Positions 11,689-18,067 are shown, counted from the stretch's first letter. The stretch: 46,968 nt of DNA from an uncultured Thermomicrobiaceae bacterium (GCA_938082375.1 CALKCJ010000006.1:1-46968); one strand, 5' to 3'. Notes: a model not told the origin generated them from the letters alone. Translations and numbers: made by a program.

Positions 11689-11882
11689 CGAGATCGCCTC
11701 CAGGCACCCGCGCACCGCTGCGCGGCAGCCAGGTACCGTAGCAGACAGGGCCGGGCCGGCGCAAGGAGAGTCGGGGAGCAGGATCGGTGAGCGCGGGCAG
11801 AGCGGCGGTGTACACTCAGCAGGGCTCCGGCAACGAGCCATCGCGAGCTGTGGCGAGGGCATGGCAGTCGAAGGCGGGTAGT

Positions 11883-12500
11883 GTGGCGACGATCCCGGGG
11901 GAAGGACAACAGCCAGCGCCGGGCACACCGGAGTTTCTCCACGCCGTCCGCCGGGCTGCTGGCTGGCGCGTCTCTCCACGGGAGATCGAGCCAGTCGTCG
12001 AGGCACTCCGGCGTACCCGTGCTCCAGTGACTCCCGAGCGGGTCGCCGAAGTGGTCTCCGCTCTCCGCGGAGAGCGATCGGCCCGGCAGCGTCGCCACCC
12101 GGAGCTGTGGCGCCTGCTGGGCGCGTACCTCGCGCTTCAGGGCAAGCCCGCTCACCCAGAGGCCCAGCGCGCCTTCATCGGTCGCTGCCGCCGGCTCCTC
12201 GGCGACCAGGTGAGTGACTTGGTGCTGCTCAGCGTGGCGACCGAGGTCGGCGCGACTGGCAAGCCACTGGACGCCCGCTTCGTCGCCCGGGCCACACGGT
12301 GGCTCCTCGAGCAGGGCGTCACTGGGGCGGAGGCTGAGCGGCTCGAGGAACTGCTCCCCCAGGCCATCGAGTTCGCGTCGCGCGCTATAGCGTCAGCGCG
12401 GCGTCCCCCGCCGGGCCGGCAGGGAGGAGATCGGCTGTCCTCGCGGCGGCCCCGGCCACCCGGCCAAGGCCCGACACCGCCTCGCCGCCAGCGCTGGTGA
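11883..12500 (+). CDS. Protein of unknown function, charged and helical with a disordered tail
   Basis: GTG 11883 with AAGGCGGG ahead gives 205 residues; other starts are possible since the frame is open to 11787. The first 160 residues are predicted helical by composition, with leucine/arginine-rich segments (LWRLLGAYLALQG, 'RATRWLLEQGV'). The last 40 are arginine/proline-rich and probably disordered. I do not recognise the family. It ends about 150 bases before the LexA-box promoter of the mutasome operon, on the same strand but outside the LexA-controlled unit. A possible -10 (TACACT, 11811-11816) lies upstream. Confidence 0.55.
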   Translation: MATIPGEGQQPAPGTPEFLHAVRRAAGWRVSPREIEPVVEALRRTRAPVTPERVAEVVSALRGERSARQRRHPELWRLLGAYLALQGKPAHPEAQRAFIGRCRRLLGDQVSDLVLLSVATEVGATGKPLDARFVARATRWLLEQGVTGAEAERLEELLPQAIEFASRAIASARRPPPGRQGGDRLSSRRPRPPGQGPTPPRRQRW

Positions 12501-12650: not shown

Positions 12651-12679
12651 TTGATTACGAACATATGTTCTACTATGCT
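12651..12679 (+). promoter_or_regulatory. LexA (SOS) box inside the promoter of imuA-imuB-dnaE2
   Basis: CGAACATATGTTC at 12658-12670 fits the Gram-positive DinR/LexA consensus CGAAC-RNRY-GTTY through the second arm; the core GAACATATGTTC is a perfect palindrome. It lies inside the 17-base spacer between a -35 (TTGATT, 12651-12656) and a -10 (TATGCT, 12674-12679), so bound LexA would block RNA polymerase. The strong site AAAGGAGGT and the imuA start follow within 30 bases. Induction by DNA damage is therefore the expected control of the three genes downstream. Confidence 0.87.
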
Positions 12680-12707
12680 GGGCGTAGGAGCGAAAGGAGG
12701 TCGCCCC

Positions 12708-13661
12708 ATGCGCCCGCGGAGCCCTGAGGAGCGCCAGGCCCTGCTCGAGGATCTGCGTCGCCAGCTCGCCGCCCGCTTCGGTGAGCACGTCCTCCTGCGC
12801 TGGGAGACAGCCCGCCCCCCGCGTGGCGCCCGCGCCCTCCCCACTGGCTCGCTCGTCCTCGACGTGCTCACGGGGATCGGTGGCCTCCCCCGCGGTCGCC
12901 TCAGCGAGCTGACCGGGCCGCCCTATTCCGGCAAGCGGACGCTCGCTGCCCACGTGGTGGCCCGGGCCCAGCGCGAGCAAGGCTGGGCTGCCTACCTCGA
13001 CGGAGCCGCCAGCCTCGATCCCGACCGCTGGCGCGCCCTGGGGGTCGACGTCGGTGACCTGCTGTGGGCGCTGCCCCGCTCGCTCGCCGAGGCGCTGGAG
13101 ATAGCCCAGCTCCTGGTGCGGACGCGGGCGCTGGATCTCGTGGTGCTCGATGTCCGGCCGGGCTGGCCGGAGCGACTACTGGCGCGCGGGGCGCGCCGCC
13201 TGCGGCCGTTGCTGCGCCGGGCGCCGACCGCGCTGCTGGTGGTGCGCGACCTTCTGCCCCCCGAGCGGGATCCGGGGCTCGGCGGGGCGGCGCTCCGGCT
13301 GCGGCTGGTTCCGGAGGGGGAGCTCTGGCTGGGCGACGGGGTGCGCACTGGACTGCGCGTCCGCCCGCGCGTGCTCCGCAGCGTCTTCACCCCGCCGGTG
13401 GACAGCCCAGTGGCGCTGGAGCTGGACGAGCGGGCTGGGCTGCGGCGGGGGGCCGAGCTGCTCGACCTGGCCTGCTGGCTGGGCGTGGTGACACGGCACC
13501 CGCTGGGCTTCCTGGGGGCAGGCACGGTGCTGGGACGGTCACGGGGCGCGGCGCTCGCCCGCCTGGAGGCGGAACCGGCACTGTGGACGCGAGTAGAGGA
13601 GGAAGTCCGTGCGCGTGGGCTATCTCCGGTTGAGCGACTCGCTGCCGGTGCCGGCCGCTGA
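12708..13661 (+). CDS. imuA: ImuA-like RecA-fold protein of the SOS mutasome
   Basis: The 317-residue protein is RecA-like, starting at ATG 12708 behind a near-perfect AAAGGAGGT site. The core begins 'TGSLVLDVLTGIGGLPRGRLSELTG', and the Walker-A position reads GPPYSGKRT, where GK is followed by Arg rather than Ser/Thr, so strong ATP hydrolysis is doubtful. A Walker-B-like strand 'LDLVVLDV' comes near residue 145. In Caulobacter and Mycobacterium the equivalents (ImuA or ImuA') work with ImuB and DnaE2 in damage-induced mutagenesis. It overlaps imuB by 53 bases and is the first gene after the LexA box, which supports the call more than sequence similarity alone. Confidence 0.82.
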   Translation: MRPRSPEERQALLEDLRRQLAARFGEHVLLRWETARPPRGARALPTGSLVLDVLTGIGGLPRGRLSELTGPPYSGKRTLAAHVVARAQREQGWAAYLDGAASLDPDRWRALGVDVGDLLWALPRSLAEALEIAQLLVRTRALDLVVLDVRPGWPERLLARGARRLRPLLRRAPTALLVVRDLLPPERDPGLGGAALRLRLVPEGELWLGDGVRTGLRVRPRVLRSVFTPPVDSPVALELDERAGLRRGAELLDLACWLGVVTRHPLGFLGAGTVLGRSRGAALARLEAEPALWTRVEEEVRARGLSPVERLAAGAGR

Positions 13662-14844
13662 GCTGCTGGTCGCCCACAGTCCGGTCGTGGAACCGGACGG
13701 GCCGCTCGCCGCCTGGTTCGACGCGACAGGGGTGCGGCTCACCCTCGGCTCGGAGGCAGCCTACGGGGCGGCGGTGCTGGCGGCAGTGGCGGCAGCCGGC
13801 GGACAGGCCCGGCTGGGCATCGGCCTGAACAAGTGGGTGGCCGCGGTGGCCGCCCGGCTCGGCGAGCCCGGCGAGGTCACCGTCGTCTCCGACGCGGAGA
13901 CGCGCGCCTTCCTACGCCCGCTGCCGCTGGAGTGGCTGCCGCTGCCGCGGGCAGCGCGCACGACGCTCCGGCTGCTGGGAGTCGAGACGATGGGGCAGTT
14001 CGCCGACCTGCCGCGAGCGGAGGTGGGACGGCGCTTCGGCCGCCAGGCGGTGGCGGCGCACCGGCTGGCCTGCGGGGAGGACCCTCGCCCCCTCGTCGGG
14101 GCAACGCTCGAACCGGCGGTGCTGATGTACGCGGCGCCGGAGCCGCCCTTGGTCGAACGGGGACAGCTCCGAGGCACGCTCGCCCGGCTGGCCGCGGGTG
14201 GCCTGGCGGAGCTGCGCCAGCGCGGGCAGGCCGCCCGCACGGTGATGCTGGGACTGGCGAGCGCCGGGGGACGGCGCGGCGAGCAGGCGCGCCACCTGCC
14301 CGCCCCGGCGAGCGAGGTGGCCGAGCTCCTGCCGCACCTCGAGGCCCTGGTCGAGGGGATGCTCGGCGCCGGGCTGGGGCCGAGCGCGGCGGTCGAGGGG
14401 ATCGGCGAGGTCTGGCTCCGGCTGTCCGGGATCGCGCCGCCGGCCGTGGCCCAGGCACACCTGCCAGGGCTGGAGGAACCCGAAACTGGCCGGGCGGAGC
14501 GGGAGCGGGTGTGGGCAGAGCTGCGCCGCCGCTACCCGGGCCAGGTGCCGCGGCTGCGAGAGGTCGTCCCGGCGGCGCCGCTGGCCGAGGAGCGCTGGCG
14601 CTTCGACGTCGCGGTGCCGCGCCAGCCGGCCCGGCTGTGGCGACGGGGCCAGGTGCGCGAGCTGGAGCTCGAGGGGCGGCGCTTCCGGGTGGTAGCTGGG
14701 GGGCTGCTCGAGCGGGTCGACCTCTGGTGGCCACGCGAGCGGCACCGCCGGGTGGTCTGGGTGGAGCTGGCCGACGGCCAGCGGCTGCTCCTGGGCTGGG
14801 ACAGCCCGCCCGGCGGCTGGGCGCTGCTGGGCCGGCTGGACTGA
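13609..14844 (+). CDS. imuB: ImuB-like Y-family polymerase homologue, N-terminally shortened
   Basis: GTG 13609 has GAGGAGGA seven bases ahead and an in-frame stop at 13594-13596, so the 411-residue start is firm. The recognisable part begins at 'AWFDATGVRLTLG' (about residues 35-47), which aligns with the second palm segment of Y-family polymerases; fingers, thumb and a long C-terminal domain follow. The usual first 60-80 residues, including the strand with the first catalytic aspartate, are missing. ImuB proteins are known to be catalytically inactive adaptors that tether DnaE2 to the sliding clamp, so this would be an extreme version. It is followed 16 bases later by dnaE2. Confidence 0.8.
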   Translation: MRVGYLRLSDSLPVPAAELLVAHSPVVEPDGPLAAWFDATGVRLTLGSEAAYGAAVLAAVAAAGGQARLGIGLNKWVAAVAARLGEPGEVTVVSDAETRAFLRPLPLEWLPLPRAARTTLRLLGVETMGQFADLPRAEVGRRFGRQAVAAHRLACGEDPRPLVGATLEPAVLMYAAPEPPLVERGQLRGTLARLAAGGLAELRQRGQAARTVMLGLASAGGRRGEQARHLPAPASEVAELLPHLEALVEGMLGAGLGPSAAVEGIGEVWLRLSGIAPPAVAQAHLPGLEEPETGRAERERVWAELRRRYPGQVPRLREVVPAAPLAEERWRFDVAVPRQPARLWRRGQVRELELEGRRFRVVAGGLLERVDLWWPRERHRRVVWVELADGQRLLLGWDSPPGGWALLGRLD

Positions 14845-14860
14845 GCGCGGAGGCAGGGCG

Positions 14861-17800
14861 ATGGCGGCCCCCTACGCCGAGCTGCACACCCACTCCTGCT
14901 TCTCACTGCTCGATGCCCCCTGCCAGCCGGCGGCGCTCGCGCGGCGGGCGGCCGAGCTGGGGTACGAGCACCTGGCGCTGACCGACCACCAGGGGCTGCA
15001 CGGGGTAGTCCGGTTCGCCCGCGCCTGCGCTGAGGCCGGGCTGCACCCCGTCATCGGGGCCGAGGTCACGCTGGACGACGGGAGCCACCTGACGCTTCTG
15101 GCCGAGAACGATGTGGGCTATGCCACGCTGGCCCGGCTGCTGTCGGCGGCGCACCTGGGCTGGGGGAGCCCGCGCCAGCCGGTCGCCCGCGCCGGTGCTG
15201 AGGCTGCGACTGGGGCGGCGGCCATGCGCCGGGTCATTCACATCCCTTGGGCATGGCTGCTCAAGGAGCACGAGGGGTTGGTCGTGCTGACCGGCTGCCG
15301 CCAGGGGCCGCTGGCGCGGACACTCGCGGCCGGACGGCGGGCGGAGGCGCTGGCGCTGGCCCGGCGGCTGCGCCAGGCCTTCGGCCCCGAGCACTGCTTC
15401 GTCGAGCTCCAGGAGCACGGGCTGCCGGGCGACCGGCGCCGCTGCGCCGAGCTGGCCGCGCTGGCCAGCACGGTGGGCCTGCCACTGGTGGCGACCAACA
15501 ACGTCCACTACCTCGACGCCGAGAGCTGGCGGCTGCAGGACGTCCTGGTTTGCATCCGCGAGCAGTGCACGCTCGACACCCCACACCCGGCGCGCAAGCG
15601 CTCGAGCGCCTACGCCCTGCAGCCGCCAGCAGCGATGGCTCGGCGGTTCGCGCGCTACCCGGAGGCGGTGGCCAACACGCTGCGGCTGGCCGAGCGCTGC
15701 CAGGTCGCACTCGACTTCCGGACCGTCCGCTTCCCGCCGCTGCCTCACCTGGTGCCGCCCGGGGAGACGGCCGACCAGACCCTGCGCCGGCTGGCCTACG
15801 AAGGGGCACAGCGCCGCTACCGGGAGCTCAGCGCGCCGGTGGTGCGCCAGCTCGAGCACGAGCTGGGGGTGATCGCCCGGCTAGGGGTGGCCCCGTTCTT
15901 CCTGATCTGCGCCGACCTCGCCAATCGCTTCCGGGGGCGGGGGCGCGGCTCAGCGGCCGACTCGCTGGTCGCCTACTGTCTAGGGATCACTCAGGTCGAC
16001 CCGCTGCGCCACCGGCTGCTCTTCGAGCGCTTCCTCAACGAGGAGCGCCCGTCGATGCCGGACATCGACATCGACTTCGGGGTCGAAGACCGCGAGCGGG
16101 CCATCGCCTATGTCTACCAGATCTACGGCGCTGAGCACGCGGCCATGGTCTGCAACTACGTGACCTTCCAGGTGCGCAGTGCGGTGCGCGACCTGGGCCG
16201 GGTGCTCGGCCTGCCGGCGGAACTGGTCGCCGAGTTGGCCGCCTCCCAGGGGGGACTGGGAGAGGAGCTAGACGCGGCGGCTCGGCGGCTGGCGGCCGGG
16301 CTGGATGCCGAGGGGCGACGCCGCGTGAGTTGGCTGGTACGGCTGGCGCCCCAGCTCGAGGACATCCCGCGGCACCTCTCGATCCACGTCGGGGGTATGG
16401 TCATCACGGGCCGGCCGCTGGTGGAGCTGGTGCCGCTCGAGCCAGCGCGGCTGCCCGGGCGGGTGGTGGTCGGCTGGGACAAGCGGGACGTAGAGGACGC
16501 CGGGCTGATCAAGACCGACCTCTTGTGCATCCGGGCACTCTCGCTGGTGCACCAGGCGGTGGAGCTCGTCGAGCGGTACAGCGGCGTGCGGCTGGAGCTG
16601 GAGAAGCTGCCGCGCGACGACCCGGCGGTCTACCGCCAGCTCCAGACGGCCGACACGCTCGGCGCCTACCAGGTGGAGAGCCGGGCACAGCAGCAGAGCT
16701 TGCCCCGGAGCGCGCCGACCTGCTTCGACGACCTGATCGCCCAGGTGGCGATCATCCGGCCGGGGCCGATCCAGGGTGGGATGGTGCACCCCTACCTGCG
16801 GCGGCGGCAGGGGCGGGAGCCGGTGCGCTACCTCCACCCGAAGCTGGAGCCGATCCTGGCTGAGACGCTAGGGGTGATCCTCTATCAGGAGCAGGTGCTG
16901 GAGGTCGCGATGGCCATCGCCGGGATGTCGGCCGGCGAAGCCGACGCCTTCCGACGGGCGATGGGGAGCCGCCGCTCGCGGGCGGCAATGGAGGCGCTGC
17001 GGGGGGCATTCCTGGCCGGGGCCGCGCGCCAGGGGGTACCCCGTGCGACAGCCGAGCAGATCTTCGCCCAGATGGCGGCCTTCGCCGAGTTCGGCTTCTG
17101 CAAGAGCCACGCGGCGGCGCTGGCCCAGACCGCCTATGAGACGCTGTGGCTGCGGGCCCACTATCCCGCGGCCTTCTACTGCGCGCTCTTGGACAACCAG
17201 CCGATGGGCTTCTACCCGCCCGAGGTAGTGCTGTGGGACGCGGTACGGCACGGGGTGCGCTTCCTTCCGCCGGACGTGACACGGAGCGCGGCCGGCTACA
17301 CGCTCGAGGGGGACGCAGTACGCGGGCCGATCCGGCTGGGGCTGCGGACGGTCAAGGGGGTAGGGGAGGCAGCCGCCGCACGGCTCGTGGCAGCGCGGGC
17401 GGCGGGGCCATTCCGGGAGCCGGAGGAGGTGGTGCGCCGGGCGAGGCTCGGGCCGGAGGCGGTACGCGCGCTGGTGCTGGTGGGGGCGTTCGCGGCGCTG
17501 GCGCCCGGGGTCGAGCGACGCCAGCTCCTGTGGCGGCTGCTGCCGCTGGCGACGGCGGGCGGGGAGCGGGCCGCGCCGGTCGAGCAGGCGGCGCTGGAGC
17601 TGGGCGCGGAGGAGCCGGCCTCGCTGCCGCCGCTGGAGGCAGGGGAGCAGACGCTCATCGACTACGCGCTGCTGGGGCTGTGCCTAGACCGCCAGCTTCT
17701 GGCGCTCTACGCCCGGCAGCGCCAGGCGCTGAAGGTGACGTCGGCCGGTGAGCTGGGGCAGCGGCCGCACGGGGCACGGGTGCGGGTAGCCGGGCTGGTG

Positions 17801-18067
17801 GTGTGCCGGCAGGCGCCGCCGACGGCCAAGGGGGTGCTGTTCCTGACGCTGGAGGACGAGAGCGGGCTGGCCAACGTGATCGTGCGGCCGGCCGTGCGGG
17901 CGCAGTTCCGGGCGACGCTGCGGGCGCCGGTACTGCTCGTCGACGGGCGAGTGCAGCAGGAGGAAGGCCTGGTGAGCGTGGTGGCGGACGAGGTGCGGAC
18001 GCTAGGCCGGCCGGCGGGCGCTCCGGCTCTGGCCGAGCGCCCGCTTCGCGCCCACGACTTCCATTGA
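14861..18067 (+). CDS. dnaE2: Error-prone DNA polymerase DnaE2 (ImuC)
   Basis: This 1068-residue C-family polymerase opens with a PHP domain ('ELHTHSCFSLLDA', His9 and His11). Catalytic aspartates of the palm are D401 and D403 in PDIDIDF, with the third at D553 in 'LIKTDLL'. Helix-hairpin-helix sequence follows, then an OB-fold near residue 965 ('RVRVAGLVV'). The protein ends in 'RAHDFH', the short tail typical of DnaE2 rather than replicative DnaE1, which is also about 100 residues longer. It is the translesion polymerase of the SOS mutasome, last gene of the LexA-controlled operon. Confidence 0.93.
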   Translation: MAAPYAELHTHSCFSLLDAPCQPAALARRAAELGYEHLALTDHQGLHGVVRFARACAEAGLHPVIGAEVTLDDGSHLTLLAENDVGYATLARLLSAAHLGWGSPRQPVARAGAEAATGAAAMRRVIHIPWAWLLKEHEGLVVLTGCRQGPLARTLAAGRRAEALALARRLRQAFGPEHCFVELQEHGLPGDRRRCAELAALASTVGLPLVATNNVHYLDAESWRLQDVLVCIREQCTLDTPHPARKRSSAYALQPPAAMARRFARYPEAVANTLRLAERCQVALDFRTVRFPPLPHLVPPGETADQTLRRLAYEGAQRRYRELSAPVVRQLEHELGVIARLGVAPFFLICADLANRFRGRGRGSAADSLVAYCLGITQVDPLRHRLLFERFLNEERPSMPDIDIDFGVEDRERAIAYVYQIYGAEHAAMVCNYVTFQVRSAVRDLGRVLGLPAELVAELAASQGGLGEELDAAARRLAAGLDAEGRRRVSWLVRLAPQLEDIPRHLSIHVGGMVITGRPLVELVPLEPARLPGRVVVGWDKRDVEDAGLIKTDLLCIRALSLVHQAVELVERYSGVRLELEKLPRDDPAVYRQLQTADTLGAYQVESRAQQQSLPRSAPTCFDDLIAQVAIIRPGPIQGGMVHPYLRRRQGREPVRYLHPKLEPILAETLGVILYQEQVLEVAMAIAGMSAGEADAFRRAMGSRRSRAAMEALRGAFLAGAARQGVPRATAEQIFAQMAAFAEFGFCKSHAAALAQTAYETLWLRAHYPAAFYCALLDNQPMGFYPPEVVLWDAVRHGVRFLPPDVTRSAAGYTLEGDAVRGPIRLGLRTVKGVGEAAAARLVAARAAGPFREPEEVVRRARLGPEAVRALVLVGAFAALAPGVERRQLLWRLLPLATAGGERAAPVEQAALELGAEEPASLPPLEAGEQTLIDYALLGLCLDRQLLALYARQRQALKVTSAGELGQRPHGARVRVAGLVVCRQAPPTAKGVLFLTLEDESGLANVIVRPAVRAQFRATLRAPVLLVDGRVQQEEGLVSVVADEVRTLGRPAGAPALAERPLRAHDFH

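Follow-up and report, generated by a model that had tools for sequence, protein, structure and literature searches.

Why a mutasome keeps a whole dead polymerase is a live question about the role of ImuB, and the imuA-imuB-dnaE2 cassette described here bears on it. The cassette lies in a stretch of 46,968 nt from an uncultured Thermomicrobiaceae bacterium (GCA_938082375.1 CALKCJ010000006.1:1-46968), the whole of which we call the window. An earlier note had read a three-gene cassette in a probable Chloroflexota genome, and both readings stood. The closest named records by ImuB identity were a Thermomicrobiaceae MAG (92%), Thermalbibacter longus (82%) and Thermomicrobium spp. (44-48%), and the genome is that of a member of the Thermomicrobiaceae, a neighbour of Thermalbibacter longus and Thermomicrobium. 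What had been overlooked was that the ImuB is without fingers and that the ImuA has the length of RecA. The interest of the locus is this fingerless ImuB and the series of operons around it, not the regulation, which is ordinary, known LexA-mutasome logic. The features of the operon are as follows.

12651-12656, + strand: -35 hexamer TTGATT of the operon promoter, read from the sequence
12659-12670: putative LexA box GAACATATGTTC, a perfect palindrome (sequence, relatives and other SOS promoters of the genome)
12674-12679, + strand: -10 hexamer TATGCT, read from the sequence, a weak match to the consensus
12693-12700, + strand: ribosome-binding site AAAGGAGG of imuA, from the sequence
12708-13661, + strand: imuA, 317 aa from an ATG, a RecA paralogue
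13609-14844, + strand: imuB, 411 aa from a GTG, a Y-family protein without the fingers domain and without the catalytic carboxylates
14861-18067, + strand: dnaE2, 1068 aa, an error-prone C-family polymerase

The overlap of imuA and imuB (53 nt) and the gap between imuB and dnaE2 (16 nt) were both exactly as claimed earlier. The three adjacent genes form a predicted single transcription unit, kept in 8 genomes; its promoter has a predicted LexA operator, and the genome encodes a LexA. DnaE2 scored 1015.5 bits against the error-prone DNA polymerase model NF004225 (cut-off, 939); its PDIDIDF catalytic motif was intact at residues 400-406, and PHP, NTPase, finger and HhH domains were present. The occurrence of DnaE2 in Chloroflexota has already been recorded (PMC3919608). 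In its gene order, its LexA box and its intact DnaE2 catalytic motif, the locus resembles the LexA-regulated cassette of Mycobacterium, Caulobacter and Pseudomonas. It likewise has an inactive Y-family ImuB with an ImuB-C domain and a candidate RecA-NT-like motif; however, the ImuB here lacks the fingers.

We observed that the solved Y-family polymerases (Pol IVs) aligned only from residue 62 of ImuB, at chain residue 130 or later, from which it follows that about 72 residues, those of the Y-family fingers, are missing ahead of that point. The AlphaFold model of ImuB was of moderate confidence (pLDDT 70, pTM 0.39), with a strand at residues 3-8 followed directly by the second half of the palm. 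VIA-align placed model residues 1-160 on residues 3-235 of MsDpo4 (153 aligned residues, rmsd 3.0), skipping about 72 residues, and this alignment indicated that the missing block comes after a retained first palm strand, at the position of the fingers. The protein has retained the palm, thumb, little finger and ImuB-C, together with a possible clamp motif and a candidate RecA-NT motif. The parts of ImuB that could be placed on the DNA are listed here.

13615-13632, + strand: ImuB residues 3-8, predicted to be the first strand of the palm (secondary structure of the model, structural alignment)
14119-14433, + strand: ImuB residues 171-275, little finger (IMS_C; Pfam PF11799, model)
14452-14472, + strand: ImuB residues 282-288, QAHLPGL, candidate beta-clamp motif (alignment and position)
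14500-14565, + strand: ImuB residues 298-319, RERVWAELRRRYPGQVPRLREV, RecA-NT-like helix-strand motif (by-eye alignment to the RecA N-terminus)
14623-14841, + strand: ImuB residues 339-411, beta-rich ImuB-C domain, fused (alignment with the ImuB of genome G091 and with stand-alone ImuB-C ORFs)

The ImuB-C assignment was supported by HMM comparison with relatives, and those of the RecA-NT-like and clamp-like motifs are purely alignment-based. QAHLPGL aligned where relatives have QPSLF, QLSLF or QESLPGL, and is divergent from the consensus, and the model predicted a helix at residues 292-308, at the RecA-NT-like motif. The motif I and SIDE positions were not acidic in the alignment. The protein thus has the palm, thumb and little finger of an ImuB together with the absence of catalytic carboxylates. 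The complete Y-family core with fingers, which is usual in ImuB but not universal, was not found; this does not exclude the protein from the ImuBs, since reduced ImuBs are known (PMC12926913).

Our statements on ImuA come from sequence alignment, and its AlphaFold model (pLDDT 39) was not used. ImuA matched Pfam RecA (1.7e-29) and the ImuA model NF033429 (2.4e-9), scoring below the curated ImuA cut-offs. Aligned to the genome's own RecA, it spans the N-terminal helix, the core and the C-terminal domain, and the profile covered residues 5-312 of 317 on solved RecAs; the C-terminal subdomain is thus apparently retained alongside RecA homology and degenerate ATPase motifs. The Walker A motif (GPPYSGKRT) has Arg in place of Thr, Ala stands at the position of RecA Glu96, and the aligned Thermomicrobiaceae ImuAs have shortened L1 and L2 loops. 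These changes make ATP hydrolysis and filament work unlikely, and we predict that ImuA, a RecA paralogue of nearly full length, is ATPase-dead. Typical ImuA lacks the Walker motifs and the C-terminal subdomain (PMC6511836), whereas the ImuA here apparently keeps the RecA-like N- and C-terminal parts.

When other genomes were examined, fingerless ImuBs were also found in family f6 (G024, G025, G026 and G032), in seven f43 genomes, which belong to another class, and in f2 (G098). Full-length inactive Y-family proteins lie 5' of dnaE2 in f5, f3, f9, f12, f14 and others, and the one actinobacterial ImuB compared (L137) has fingers. G098 had been taken for a full-length ImuB, and was counted as fingerless once its upstream 'domain' proved to be the C-terminus of imuA out of frame. 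The candidates from f6 genomes G030 and G034 were set aside as active-looking DinBs.

Turning to the promoter, the 17-nt spacer between the hexamers (12657-12673) contains the box GAACATATGTTC, so that the palindrome described earlier, ahead of the three genes, was correct in every coordinate. The hexamers match the consensus at only 8/12 positions, and the promoter was therefore missed by our promoter scan, whose threshold is 9/12. There is a single copy of GAACN4GTTC in the window, against 0.19 expected from dinucleotide shuffles, which taken alone is not impressive. The -35 region carries CAACTCTTGA, with unchanged spacing to the box, at 8/8 Thermomicrobiaceae loci. Just 5' of the operon, a 237-aa ORF without any match in Pfam, NCBIfam or PHROGs (11787-12497, + strand) overlaps a divergently oriented ORF for an MFS transporter, at the latter's 5' end.

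A single clear LexA is encoded in the genome (TIGR00498 equivalog, 188.6 bits; cut-off, 110.95), and its self-cleavage residues (the A-G bond, Ser and Lys) were intact by eye. The lexA promoter reads TTGACA-CGAACATCTGTTCGCTCG-TATAGT, in the same layout as at imuA, with the box GAACATCTGTTC between the hexamers. Since lexA's own promoter carries this box, the site of LexA would be the same as that at imuA. The recognition region of the protein is ISSTSVVDYNL, as against SPNAAEEHL in the E. coli type, and so is not of that type. The consensus of the Gram-positive LexA/DinR box is CGAACRNRYGTTYG. The boxes here have the same GAAC-N4-GTTC core, and at lexA and imu they lie in the promoter spacer; however, most sites in the genome are GAACANNTGTTC, and those at recA and radA are variants. 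The equivalog match, together with GAACN4GTTC in its own promoter, places this LexA, on sequence grounds, in the Gram-positive specificity group.

The earlier note had proposed that a Bacillus-type box ties the LexA of this lineage to the DinR group, and had suggested a search for further boxes ahead of recA and lexA. A lexA gene is present, the predicted specificity of its product agrees with the proposal, and both promoters have the box. GAACN4GTTC also lies closely 5' of dinB, ruvB and radA; the regulon was assembled from pattern searches alone, and the proteins were identified by curated models. The interpretation of an imuA-imuB-dnaE2 operon regulated by LexA is thus supported by the box, the regulon and the conservation. 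A literature search returned no paper on a Chloroflexota LexA motif, which is no proof that none exists. Sites at contigs C14, C3, C60 and elsewhere adjoin no recognisable SOS gene and were taken as background. A 203-aa ORF (L050 3074-3682; contig C10:45773-46381) is preceded by a promoter-like stretch with TTGACA and by a perfect GAACAGATGTTC box. It matched PHROGs of unknown function (8e-19) and had no match in Pfam or NCBIfam; it is probably a further LexA-regulated gene.

The box was present at the imu promoter in all 8 Thermomicrobiaceae genomes with the cassette, as the exact 12-mer in the window's genus and as GAACNNGTGTTC in Thermomicrobium. Of the 18 other DnaE2 loci in the class with the upstream region read, 15 also had the box, as did 7/7 loci of the distant f43 family; its density in these 25 class and family loci was 0.19 per kb, against 0.014 genome-wide. 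Regulation through this box is not class-wide, since no box was found at the remaining three class loci (f6 G025, f6 G032 and f9 G061). The f6 operons in L102, L187, L188 and L108 keep imuA, a fingerless imuB and dnaE2 behind a promoter without GAACN4GTTC. The imu promoters of Thermomicrobium (L133-L136, L126) have a pair of boxes at a distance of 27 nt, of which the second is weaker or degenerate (GAACNNATGTAC/GTGC), and the Thermalbibacter-like genomes have only the first. The cassette of L091 (G094, f14) is split: imuA and dnaE2 each have their own box (GAACATACGTTC and GAACATATGTTC, at positions 929 and 4650), and dnaE2 stands after an intergenic gap.

Could the ImuB be fingerless in appearance only, through a broken frame or a true upstream start lost by frameshift or assembly error? 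Its 411 aa are indeed short beside the 537-aa frame of the actinobacterial ImuB in L137. However, 8/8 genomes of two genera, with 44-92% identity, share the GTG start, the GGAGG ribosome-binding site and an overlap with imuA of exactly 53 nt, which rules out a local frameshift. In addition, the DNA 5' of imuB is taken up by imuA, with its conserved C-terminal RecA-like domain, and the fingers are also absent at 12 more loci, spread over three other families. Such an artefact is extremely improbable. It is likewise hard to see the palindrome as a chance occurrence or as the site of another dyad-binding regulator, and we give this very little credence. The 3.36-Mb genome does contain GAACN4GTTC 46 times, and the reversed control 29 times, which makes most single sites background. 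Nevertheless, lexA, recA, dinB, ruvB, radA and imuA each have a box near the start, and in a simple Poisson model of 46 sites in 3.36 Mb the probability that six boxes lie no more than 250 bp from a dozen SOS genes is about 6e-12. The position of the imu box and its retention before the same operon in relatives (the Thermomicrobiaceae and f43 promoters alike) therefore make chance very unlikely.

The other alternatives deserve somewhat more weight. An ImuA working as an active RecA-like ATPase of the Myxococcus xanthus ImuA3 type would put the cassette in recombination or filament control and not in scaffolding only. ImuA covers RecA from its N-terminal helix through its C-terminal domain and has kept the Walker A lysine and the Walker B aspartate, and an ATP-hydrolysing ImuA3 group has been reported (PMC12926913); the Arg and Ala substitutions and the shortened loops nevertheless make this activity unlikely. 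The fingerless ImuBs might also have had a single origin followed by horizontal transfer, instead of several losses. In the best tree, built on the common thumb and little-finger region, the fingerless proteins of f1 (the window's family), f2 and f43 do cluster, weakly (70/70). However, the f6 fingerless ImuBs grouped with the full-length G061 of f9 (support 100/98), and a single clade for all fingerless rows was rejected (p = 0.018), in a test that is soft because the group was named after the data were seen. On these two observations, a single origin seems improbable, although it is the strongest of these competitors, and at least two independent losses of the fingers in Chloroflexota are the better reading of the sequences, with some long branches in the tree as a caution.

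The preferred reading of the locus, which we consider very probable from its sequence, is a LexA-repressed mutasome operon with a fingerless ImuB as the hub, an error-prone DnaE2 and an ATPase-dead ImuA. LexA bound in the promoter spacer would keep the three genes off; after damage, RecA filaments would bring about its self-cleavage, and the three proteins would be made together, the translation of ImuB presumably being coupled to that of ImuA. DnaE2 would carry out error-prone lesion bypass, the ImuB hub would contact its partners without fingers, and the operon would raise mutation after damage. The fingers of a Y-family polymerase close on the templating base and the incoming nucleotide. 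A dead polymerase would no longer need them, and in the Thermomicrobiaceae lineage ImuB has lost them. In mycobacteria, ImuB is the hub, and its clamp and RecA-NT motifs are required (PMC10421592, PMC11791113). The thumb and ImuB-C have been modelled as the contacts to DnaE2 and persist in even the most strongly reduced ImuBs (PMC12926913). Lineages that lose the fingers while keeping the thumb, little finger and interaction motifs are natural deletion experiments, and point to a minimal hub that could be crystallised. According to PMC12926913, no multisubunit complex that contains a bacterial Y-family member has had its structure determined experimentally, which makes the small ImuB of a thermophile a practical target.

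A reduced ImuB is not in itself a new kind. The 2026 survey of Timinskas, Venclovas and colleagues reported drastically reduced ImuBs with structural elements deleted and with thumb, little finger and ImuB-C always kept (PMC12926913); its main text does not mention Chloroflexota among them. The additions here are the occurrence in Chloroflexota, the recurrence, and the pairing of a reduced ImuB with a detached ImuB-C. Structural elements are likewise deleted in our proteins, and the thumb and little finger kept, but in f6, f43 and f2 ImuB-C is a separate gene, so that the reduced ImuB itself is without it.

The operons differ in this respect. In f5 members of the same order we observed a Y-family gene, a stand-alone ImuB-C and dnaE2, with imuA absent from the stretch read. 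The iPolY - ImuB-C - DnaE2 - RecA systems (Kyrpidia tusciae, DnaE2X) likewise have a stand-alone ImuB-C between the Y-family gene and dnaE2. Those systems are reported without imuA (PMC6511836), whereas f43, f2, f6 and f12 have imuA, imuB, a stand-alone ImuB-C and dnaE2. The stand-alone ImuB-C genes encode about 85-117 aa (L179-L183 of f43, L100, L102 and L093). Since the 2019 survey did not find imuA together with a stand-alone ImuB-C (PMC6511836), this type fills a gap. ImuB-C is fused to the end of ImuB in the window's family, in f14 G091 and in f52 G342, the last judged from a full-length BLAST match to G091. The DnaE2X systems were proposed in 2026 as ancestors of ImuA-ImuB-DnaE2 (PMC12926913); the operons that combine ImuA with a detached ImuB-C are relevant to such an origin. 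Chloroflexota may thus hold the whole series of mutasome building, from f5 through f12 (with fingers) and f2, f6 and f43 (fingerless) to the fused forms of f14 G091, f52 and the Thermomicrobiaceae, with the fingers removed independently at least twice, and we put the chances of this at about even. If true, the stepwise series with its repeated loss of the fingers would provide direct evidence that ImuB's polymerase core serves as nothing more than a scaffold.
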